The notes beneath the pieces are model-generated. The model was given only the letters and a program-made list of their open reading frames with translations. It ran no database searches and was not told the origin of the DNA. From Flavobacteriales bacterium (GTDB lineage: Bacteria; Bacteroidota; Bacteroidia; Flavobacteriales_E; Vicingaceae), in the NCBI GenBank assembly GCA_002401955.1, contig NVUQ01000001.1:124001-188000 (forward strand): 64,000 nt of DNA, in the 5' to 3' direction. A program made the translations under genes and the position numbers. Shown here piece by piece: positions 39,606 through 43,530 of this stretch (positions within the stretch are counted from its first letter, which is position 1; the number at the start of each line of letters is the position of its first letter).

Positions 39606-40838
39606 ATGAAACCAGAAACAATATTCAACATCATTATTACCATTATTGTTGTCAATTTTTTGTTGGAGCGATGGATGGATTGGTTAAATGATAAAAATTC
39701 ATCAGAGACATTACCAGAAGAGTTAAAAGGAATTTATGATGAAGAAAAGTATGCAAAACAACGTGCTTATGATAAAGTAAAAGGTAGGTTTTCTACTGTT
39801 TCATCAACTTTTAGTTTTGTGTTGATTTTAGCAATGTTATTTTTTAAAGGCTTTGCTTTTGTAGATGCTTACGCGAGAACTATTACTGATCATGTTCTTT
39901 TTTTACCATTAGTATTTTTTGTCATTTTAATGATAGCCTCTGATATTTTAACTACCCCATTTTCTATTTATAGCACTTTTGTAATTGAAGAAAAATTTGG
40001 TTTTAATCGAACAACGATTAAAACATACATTTTAGATAAGCTAAAAGGAGCTTTGGTAGGTGTAATTATTGGGGGTGGATTAATGATGCTTTTTATTTGG
40101 TTTTATAATTATACTGGAGAATTATTTTGGCTGTGGACTTGGGGAGCGATTGCCATTTTCATGATTTTAATTACGATGTTTTATGCTTCAGTTATTGTTC
40201 CTTTATTTAATAAATTAACACCTTTAGAAGAAGGAGAGTTAAAAACGGAAATTATTACTTACTGTAAAAAGGTAGGATTTAATTTGGATAATTTATTTGT
40301 GATGGATGGATCAAAAAGATCATCTAAAGCAAATGCTTTTTTTAGTGGTTTAGGTTCTAAAAAACGAATTGTATTATACGATACTTTGGCTAATGAGTAT
40401 TCTAAAGAAGAAATTACAGCGGTTTTAGCACATGAAATTGGTCATTATAAAAAGAAGCATACATTAACTACAATGGTTGTTTCTGTGGTTCAAATAGGAG
40501 TGATGTTGTTTATTCTATCTTTAGTAATTAATAAGCCTGAATTTTCGATGGCTTTAGGAGTTCAAGAAAAAAGTTTTCATATTGGTTTACTTGTCTTTTC
40601 AATGTTGTATTCACCACTTTCTATGTTAATAGGAATAGTAATGAATGTGATTTCTCGTAAGAATGAATATGAAGCAGATGACTATGCTAAAACTACGTAT
40701 AGTGCTGATCCTTTAGTAAGTTCTTTGAAAAAACTTTCGGTAGATAGCTTGAGTAATTTAACCCCTCACCCTTATTATGTTTTCATGAATTATTCACATC
40801 CAACACTATTGCAGCGTATAAAGGCCTTGTATAATTAA
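39606..40838 (+). CDS. M48 family (Ste24-like) metallopeptidase
   Basis: VLAHEIGHYKKKHT zinc motif with N-terminal TMs; ENEYEADDYAK. Confidence 0.9.
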   Translation: MKPETIFNIIITIIVVNFLLERWMDWLNDKNSSETLPEELKGIYDEEKYAKQRAYDKVKGRFSTVSSTFSFVLILAMLFFKGFAFVDAYARTITDHVLFLPLVFFVILMIASDILTTPFSIYSTFVIEEKFGFNRTTIKTYILDKLKGALVGVIIGGGLMMLFIWFYNYTGELFWLWTWGAIAIFMILITMFYASVIVPLFNKLTPLEEGELKTEIITYCKKVGFNLDNLFVMDGSKRSSKANAFFSGLGSKKRIVLYDTLANEYSKEEITAVLAHEIGHYKKKHTLTTMVVSVVQIGVMLFILSLVINKPEFSMALGVQEKSFHIGLLVFSMLYSPLSMLIGIVMNVISRKNEYEADDYAKTTYSADPLVSSLKKLSVDSLSNLTPHPYYVFMNYSHPTLLQRIKALYN

Positions 40839-40848
40839 ATAGGTCAAC

Positions 40849-40880
40849 TTTGTTTATTATAAATAAAAAGTTTAACTTTA
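40849..40880 (+). promoter_or_regulatory. Candidate promoter TTTG-N20-TAACTTTA
   Basis: Matches Bacteroidota TTTG / TAnnTTTR layout upstream of the 63-aa lipoprotein. Confidence 0.45.
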
Positions 40881-40902: not shown

Positions 40903-41094
40903 ATGAAAAAGTCATTCTTAAGCAAATTCTTAGCATTCTTTTTTTTATGCAGCTTAATGGTACCTCTTACGGTTTCATTACAATCTTGCGGTGGTACCAA
41001 ATACAACAAATCTAGAAATGGAGGGAAAAGAATCAATTCTTCTGGTAGTGTTGGACTTAAAAAGCATAAGAATCGCCATGTTTGGGGTAAATAG
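40903..41094 (+). CDS. 63-aa micro-lipoprotein A
   Basis: Signal peptide and lipobox VSLQSC; CGGTKYNKSRNGGKRINSSGSVGLKKHKNRHVWGK. Confidence 0.65.
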   Translation: MKKSFLSKFLAFFFLCSLMVPLTVSLQSCGGTKYNKSRNGGKRINSSGSVGLKKHKNRHVWGK

Positions 41095-41140
41095 CCTCTT
41101 TTTTCACTAACTTTTTTTCATATTAGACGTAAACTGGTTT

Positions 41141-41278
41141 ATGTCTAATAAAACATTTTCCATATTACTTTTGTTTATCTTTTTAGTTGGATTAGGATGT
41201 TCTTATAGTGGTCCTAAATACAATAAATCCAGAAATGGAGGAAAAAGGATTGTTGCCAATGGCAATATGCGAGGTTAG
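41141..41278 (+). CDS. 45-aa micro-lipoprotein B, paralogue of A (absent from ORF track)
   Basis: MSNKTFSILLLFIFLVGLGCSYSGPKYNKSRNGGKRIVANGNMRG*; lipobox VGLGC and the same KYNKSRNGGKRI core. Confidence 0.65.
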   Translation: MSNKTFSILLLFIFLVGLGCSYSGPKYNKSRNGGKRIVANGNMRG

Positions 41279-41298: not shown

Positions 41299-43530
41299 TT
41301 ATTGGATAACCAGTCGCTTTACAATTCTTTCTTTTTCTGATTCAATTAAAATTAAATAGATTCCTTTTTTATTATTACTTAAATTCAATTGAGTAGTGTT
41401 TTGAGCTATATTTTCTTCTTTATATACCACCTGTCCGATCACATCATAAATTACAACATTAAATGGTTTTTTACTTTGAGTAATGATAGTGAAAATACCT
41501 GTGTTAGGATTAGGGTAAAGATTAAATGAGGCATTTGTATATTCGTGTATTCCCGTTAAGGAATCCATACAAAAAGCAAAATTAATACTATCTGTACTAA
41601 AGGTATTATCAATACCTAATGTATCTCCACTACTGTTTTCTGTTATTAATGTTGATCCGTTTCCAAAACTACAACAATAGCCATCAGGTGTAGATGCATT
41701 ATCATAAAGAGTTAATGTAAAACACCCTCCATATAAACATAAGGTTTCATTATATGTTTGTCCGCCAGTAATATTTGGGTAGCCACCACCTTCTAACAGT
41801 GTAGCTCCAGAAGTATTATCCCTAACTACCCATGATAGTTCTGATCCATAATCATCTGTAGTTAAATCCATTGTTGCTAAAACAGGATTGCTGTTAGAAG
41901 TAAAATTAACGTAAGCACTGTCATTCATCGGGTTACCGTCAAAAGTTCCATTAGGGTTCGAGCATGTAGCAATAAAAGTATGAGGTCCATTAGAGGTATA
42001 AAATGTTGGTAGAGTAACATTTTCTGAAGCGTAAGAAACTAAACTTCCTGTCCAATTTAAGGTGTTAAAACCTCCACCATCTAATTCATAATTAATTGTT
42101 AATGAATTTAATGTGTTTGAACCATGATTTCTAATAGTGATTTGTGGGAAAATAGAATCTCCGCAAATAAAAGAGTTGATTCCATCAATATTTAATAAAA
42201 CAGCATCTGTTGTTAATGTTGCTCCGTTTGGGTCATAGCCATCAAGAGTAGTTGCTCCAGAATTGTTAGGATCTAACCAATGTTTTAATTGTTTACCAAT
42301 AAGCGTGTTGGTTTCCCATGAGTAAGAGAATTTTCCGTAATAGTCAAAAGCATCATTTCCACAAGCGGCATTTCCTCCGTGTAATTGACCAACAATTCTA
42401 TGGTTTTGATCGAATAAAGGAGAACCAGAAGAACCACCCTCAGTTGTGCCAGAATTCCAATCTAATACTTCCCAGTGATCATTACCTGAGCTATAATAGC
42501 CTGATTCAATAACGTTATCATCATCATGAGAAATCTTTTTTACATCTAAAGACGGAAAATGAATTCCTGTACCTTTTGTTGGAGCAATATTTATATTAGA
42601 CCAACCAGCATAAAACACATTGTAATTTGCTGGAGGAGCACTTGAGAGTTCTACTAGTGCAAAATCTGAAGGAATATCTATTGCTCTTAAAGTGCACCCA
42701 CTTATTGTTTGAGATGTTATTCCATCAATATTTGTTACGCAATCTGAAGATTGATAGTTAAACATAAAAATATTATTAAAAGAGGGGTTGCAGTGTTTAG
42801 CAGTTAATACATAGGGTGTTCCATCCTGTAAAACATTATTAATTAAAGCAGCAGAGCAGATCCTAGAATTACTTGAAGTTAAAAGCATTACTGCAGATCG
42901 TATTTCATTACCCCAAAAAGCAGTATCGCAAATAGCATTAACATTACAAGCTCCAGAGCTTCCAAATGATTTAGCGTGGTTAAATAAATCTCTATAGCCA
43001 TGTATTATGGATAAAATTTCAATTGTTCCTTGGCCTTGTACAGCAGCAGGTTCATAGTATTCTAATGTTGAATAATCTCCTTTTAATAATGAAGTAGAAA
43101 ATTGGCCATTTGCTTTATTATTTTCATTCGTAAAAGAACCTAGTCTTTCATTTTTAGTATAAACAAAGAAAGTAGCTCCAATAGGTAAATTAAAAGCACT
43201 GTAGTTTAAGTTAGTGGTTTTTGCATTTGGTGATTGTATGGTTAATCGCCAAATTCTATCTCCGTTAGAAAGGGTTGTCCAAACACCAGAATTGTTAAGG
43301 TTTAAATTTACAAATTGCTCAATACCAAAACGCCAAGCAATGTCTTTATGGGTATCTGTTATTTTATCTTCTTTAATATAGGATTGAAGGTTTAAAGTTG
43401 GTGTAATGTGGATTGGCGCAGTAGATAGATTTTTATTAAAACTAACTGGATTTCCTCCATGACTTATCTGACTAAAGCCATGTAAAGAAATAAGAATACA
43501 TAAAATGAGGGATAATTTTTTCATAAACAT
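41299..43530 (-). CDS. Secreted trypsin-like serine endopeptidase with T9SS domain
   Basis: YVLTAKHCNPSF, GTTEGGSSGSPLFDQNHRIVGQLHGG, FNLYPNPNTGIFTI... Confidence 0.85.
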   Translation of the reverse strand: MFMKKLSLILCILISLHGFSQISHGGNPVSFNKNLSTAPIHITPTLNLQSYIKEDKITDTHKDIAWRFGIEQFVNLNLNNSGVWTTLSNGDRIWRLTIQSPNAKTTNLNYSAFNLPIGATFFVYTKNERLGSFTNENNKANGQFSTSLLKGDYSTLEYYEPAAVQGQGTIEILSIIHGYRDLFNHAKSFGSSGACNVNAICDTAFWGNEIRSAVMLLTSSNSRICSAALINNVLQDGTPYVLTAKHCNPSFNNIFMFNYQSSDCVTNIDGITSQTISGCTLRAIDIPSDFALVELSSAPPANYNVFYAGWSNINIAPTKGTGIHFPSLDVKKISHDDDNVIESGYYSSGNDHWEVLDWNSGTTEGGSSGSPLFDQNHRIVGQLHGGNAACGNDAFDYYGKFSYSWETNTLIGKQLKHWLDPNNSGATTLDGYDPNGATLTTDAVLLNIDGINSFICGDSIFPQITIRNHGSNTLNSLTINYELDGGGFNTLNWTGSLVSYASENVTLPTFYTSNGPHTFIATCSNPNGTFDGNPMNDSAYVNFTSNSNPVLATMDLTTDDYGSELSWVVRDNTSGATLLEGGGYPNITGGQTYNETLCLYGGCFTLTLYDNASTPDGYCCSFGNGSTLITENSSGDTLGIDNTFSTDSINFAFCMDSLTGIHEYTNASFNLYPNPNTGIFTIITQSKKPFNVVIYDVIGQVVYKEENIAQNTTQLNLSNNKKGIYLILIESEKERIVKRLVIQ

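Follow-up and report, generated by a model that had tools for sequence, protein, structure and literature searches.

The 64-kb window analysed here (64,000 nucleotides of a 4.2-Mb draft genome, 83% complete, whose nearest named relatives are genomes of uncultured Flavobacteriales and Vicingaceae) contains two small genes, lip1 and lip2 (Table 1), that are almost certainly a real, conserved and lineage-specific micro-lipoprotein pair. They belong to a known kind of protein, of which they make up a new family restricted to one lineage. Very small lipoproteins usually escape gene callers and family databases. The two open reading frames, of 63 and 45 aa and each with its own lipobox, were first pointed out in a sequence-only reading of the window, and their positions, plus-strand orientation and lengths were confirmed.

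Table 1. Features of the lip1-lip2 region and its neighbours (window coordinates).
Feature	Coordinates	Strand	Remarks
M48 (Ste24-like) membrane peptidase, upstream neighbour	39606..40838	+	Adjacent in g1 and one g16 locus examined (G042)
Putative lip1 promoter	40849..40880	+	TTTG, 20-base spacer, TAACTTTA
lip1	40903..41094	+	63-aa micro-lipoprotein; tailed orthologues in 39/46 family genomes; pN/pS 0.21
lip1 signal peptide, lipobox SLQS-C	40903..40986	+	Cys invariant across all aligned members
lip1 linker KYNKSRNGGKRI (motif of the sequence-only reading)	40999..41034	+	Differs or is missing in other genera
lip1 conserved C-terminal tail SSGSVGLKKHKNRHVWGK	41038..41091	+	Family form S-x-SG-x-x-GN-x-K-x-KN-x-HVWGK; tail codons vary synonymously
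lip2	41141..41278	+	45-aa lip1 paralogue without the HVWGK tail; profile match to lip1; counterparts after lip1 in other genera
lip2 linker KYNKSRNGGKRI	41216..41251	+	Same protein sequence as the lip1 linker
T9SS-secreted lysyl endopeptidase (Lys-C/API type) with Por secretion tail, convergent neighbour	41299..43530	-	Adjoins lip1 or lip2 in 10 genera

The proteins read MKKSFLSKFLAFFFLCSLMVPLTVSLQS-CGGTKYNKSRNGGKRINSSGSVGLKKHKNRHVWGK (lip1) and MSNKTFSILLLFIFLVGLG-CSYSGPKYNKSRNGGKRIVANGNMRG (lip2). To judge from sequence alone, both have the layout of signal peptidase II substrates, with a basic N-terminus, a hydrophobic stretch and a lipobox Cys, C29 in lip1 (SLQS-C29) and C20 in lip2 (VGLG-C20); many lip1 members have an unusual residue (Q, E, N, D, P) at position -2 of the lipobox. 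The predicted mature products have 35 and 26 residues and are very basic, as had been proposed, carrying net charges of about +10 and +6 and no acidic residues. Across members the net charge ranges from +6 to +12 for lip1 and from +3 to +8 for lip2. AlphaFold2 is confident for the signal helix alone (pLDDT 53-62 in the mature part), and the mature chains are predicted to be unstructured.

A loose search found lip1-like matches, some of them weak, in 43 of the 46 family genomes, and a profile of the mature part detected tailed lip1 in 39 of the 46 (E 1e-14 to 5e-9), including 30 of the 32 of good quality. Lip1 is not a chance reading frame, since it recurs across the family. Conservation thus extends beyond the window's genome, and the frames stay open in relatives, where the sequence-only reading had considered that frameshifts might appear. 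Selection on the pair, which it had proposed to measure, is visible in raw pN/pS values within the window's genus of about 0.2 for lip1 and 0.27-0.29 for lip2, at near-saturated synonymous change; these values support purifying selection on both genes. This selection and the promoter-like sequence suggest that the genes are expressed.

The boxes of the putative lip1 promoter are presumably of the Bacteroidota -33/-7 type. The TA..TTTA box is invariant in 11/11 species of the window's genus, and the -33 box varies among them. The sequence CGTAAACT preceding lip2 shows no enrichment within the window. A near-perfect inverted repeat (ATTAGACGTAAAC / GTTTATGTCTAAT, 41120-41152) overlaps the lip2 start codon; CGTA at the position of this repeat also precedes lip2 in other genera, where the palindrome is only partly conserved.

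The micro-lipoproteins seem to be confined to a single Vicingaceae-like order, which in the genome collection used contains only the taxonomic family of the window. No credible relative was found with the mature-part profile in 395 genomes of the class, or with the full-length profile in about 200 genomes of the class and about 200 (198) of the phylum; because searches with proteins of this small size have limited reach, relatives of greater divergence may exist. No credible match came from Pfam, NCBIfam or PHROGs either, from the solved structures of the PDB, or from phage families and phage genomes, and the literature yielded nothing on small lipoproteins in this Flavobacteriales group. Weak matches outside the family (G058, G106 and others) have no start, lipobox or tail and were dismissed as chance, as were apparent extra paralogues in G018 and G024.

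The near-invariant segment of the family is the C-terminal tail of lip1. Lip2 is without this tail. The sequence-only reading had called the tails divergent; that of lip1 is the strongly conserved segment in the family. Residues S46, G51, N57, H59, V60, W61, G62 and K63 are invariant in lip1 (alignment A4). Synonymous codon differences are found at the H, G, K and N residues of the tail, which places the constraint on the protein and not on a DNA element. The C-terminal residue is Lys in most lip1 proteins, Arg in G001 and G042 and Gln in G044, and lip1 of G007 extends beyond WG. The two good-quality exceptions, G021 and G041, retain lip1 copies in which the tail is altered or missing, so that the tail is not indispensable in every species. 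In G041 (99% complete) the sole lip1-like copy is tail-less (CASNKPKMQTRNGGKRINSTGSMGRGAK) and lies at a different locus (L033:668-814).

The 12-residue segment KYNKSRNGGKRI had been regarded as the conserved functional core of the pair. Its identity in lip1 and lip2 at the protein level is correct, the two copies being separated by 5 synonymous differences and no non-synonymous one. As a functional core, however, it was rejected: it is a linker that varies freely across the family and is missing in most genera, its RNGG part is limited to genera g1, g6, g15 and g16, and three species of the window's genus have a different linker in lip2. The binding function that had been suggested for the basic core is plausible, and would reside in the lip1 tail more likely than in the linker.

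The tandem is an ancient paralogous pair. Small lipoproteins of lip2 type lie directly 3' of lip1 in genera g1, g7, g9, g13 and g14. A core (K/R)(V/I)x(S/A)xxx(M/I) with the same spacing is present in 12/12 deep lip1 and 5/5 deep lip2 members; it occurs in 0.2-0.4% of shuffled sequences, a figure that is supportive and not a test, because the core was derived from these very sequences. The lip1 and lip2 profiles built from deep members alone match each other with a probability of 87% (E 4e-6). Two tiny adjacent lipoproteins are also the layout of an entericidin-like antidote/toxin tandem targeting the cell's own envelope. Such a role is scarcely credible here: in several genera lip1 is found with no lip2 detected, neither Pfam nor NCBIfam gives an entericidin match, and lip1 and lip2 are strongly basic, which entericidins are not.

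Within the window's genus, the lip2 linker is KYNKxRNGGKR in five species and GKP(P/S)KK(H/Y)HKGPK (the GKPPKKHHKGPK type) in three, and a rough species tree interleaves the two types, leaving room for old exchange, transfer or differential loss. These unrelated types alternate among close species (L008, L026 and L027 vs the window's lip2, 41141-41278). Recent gene conversion of the linker in the window's genome is unsupported, because 5 of the roughly 7 synonymous sites differ between the copies.

No gene neighbour is common to all carriers. The upstream M48 peptidase is probably not a functional partner, since its adjacency was seen in g1 and in the one g16 locus examined. The convergent lysyl endopeptidase (matching PDB 4nsy, E 1e-38) stays linked in 10 genera through at least three differing flanking contexts (M1 aminopeptidase/TsaD; 694-aa/M48/channel; a third one in G015). 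This persistent convergent adjacency and the Lys-C/API type of the protease would fit lip1 and lip2 acting as inhibitor, decoy or immunity peptides, in which the Lys-rich chain and C-terminal Lys occupy the lysyl endopeptidase as it crosses the periplasm. The same reading gains from g16, a genus without a detected protease of this type, where lip1 ends in Arg or Gln instead of Lys in two of the four species, and from family f32, where an unrelated His/Lys-rich small lipoprotein is likewise convergent to a Lys-C homologue. It is improbable all the same. Lip1 is retained in each of the four species of g16 and in G026 (97% complete, and keeping lip2 as well) with no lysyl endopeptidase at E<=1e-60, and the lip1 and protease genes are apart in g4, g5, g6 and g15, so the protease is not an obligate partner; moreover, lip1 of G001 ends in Arg despite an adjacent protease, and the f32 peptide reaches a probability of 0.2% against the lip1 profile. 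An obligate partnership is disfavoured by g16 and G026.

The f32 lipoprotein, different from lip1 and lip2, occupies the same convergent position beside the Lys-C homologue; without profile support, it was rejected as a lip1 homologue. In this other family of the class, His/Lys-rich small lipoproteins (YNYAKHNKRSNK...) lie convergent to the Lys-C homologue at L202:1156-1362 and L199:1175-1420, and further His/Lys-rich copies with YNYxxHxK occur elsewhere (L216, L217). They are possibly a separate micro-lipoprotein family.

The best overall explanation, which we hold tentatively and at somewhat less than an even chance, is that lip1 and lip2 are an ancient paralogous pair in the standard gene set of a Vicingaceae-like lineage, encoding periplasm-facing cationic lipopeptides with docking through the lip1 tail. 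Within it, the sequences establish the genes themselves, their lipoboxes and extreme basicity, the conserved lip1 tail, the order-restricted distribution and the ancestral tandem. Both proteins would be exported by Sec, cleaved by signal peptidase II and acylated, and would then stay anchored on the periplasmic side of the outer membrane, a placement proposed because neither has a Bacteroidota surface-export signal. The anchored products would be short, largely unstructured, positively charged chains. The GNxKxKNxHVWGK tail of lip1 would serve as a linear recognition motif, docking without a covalent bond on a partner in the periplasm or outer membrane, and the variable basic linker may provide reach and cling electrostatically to anionic wall or lipid. 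Lip2, without the tail, may be an auxiliary or competing version. Taken by itself, a non-covalent docking tail that faces the periplasm is possible and rather doubtful.

A specific form of this explanation makes lip1 a subunit or docking peptide of a particular outer-membrane machine, such as type IX secretion or BAM. The near-universal presence of lip1 in the lineage, its strongly conserved linear tail and the T9SS cargo encoded next to it are consistent with such a role, which is nonetheless unlikely: solved structures give no match, the family is confined to one order and such machines are phylum-wide, and the terms searched in an open-access paper on Bacteroidota BAM found no small lipoproteins. 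It is similarly unlikely that the tail is a new linear motif read by some envelope machine or by the lysyl endopeptidase, carried on a fold-less 30-residue lipopeptide near-universal across the order. Nearly all members of this environmental Flavobacteriales order retain lip1. Its sharply conserved tail, its lack of annotated relatives and a size within reach of synthesis make it a convenient tool for probing a periplasmic interaction so far unrecognised in the envelopes of Bacteroidota.

Among known systems, Braun's lipoprotein (Lpp) is similar in being a very small lipoprotein, and a C-terminal Lys is common in lip1. An analogous role, with this Lys covalently joined to peptidoglycan by an L,D-transpeptidase, is very improbable. 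Seven good-quality genomes with tailed lip1 (g3, g7, g9, g10, g13) have no YkuD-domain protein at E<=1e-5, in a search that at the same settings does match E. coli and 33 of the 46 family genomes. The last residue is not invariant, since some members end in Arg or Gln, and one protein runs past WG; covalent wall anchoring is disfavoured on both grounds. Unlike Lpp, lip1 is extremely basic, and its Gly/Asn/Lys-rich mature chain has no predicted helical heptads.

Entericidin A/B and other tiny enterobacterial lipoproteins share with the pair the tandem arrangement and mature lengths of about 20-35 residues; they differ in giving no profile match and in having neither the basic linker nor the HVWGK tail. 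Surface-exposed Bacteroidota lipoproteins are signal peptidase II substrates, as lip1 and lip2 are predicted to be, and their export signal after the Cys, C-X-K-(D/E)2 or S-D-rich, was defined in other Bacteroidota families (PMC5080379). Neither this signal nor its SDDDD-type form is present in any member of the lip1/lip2 family, and surface display is disfavoured; in place of the acidic signal, lip1 and lip2 have basic or polar residues after the Cys.
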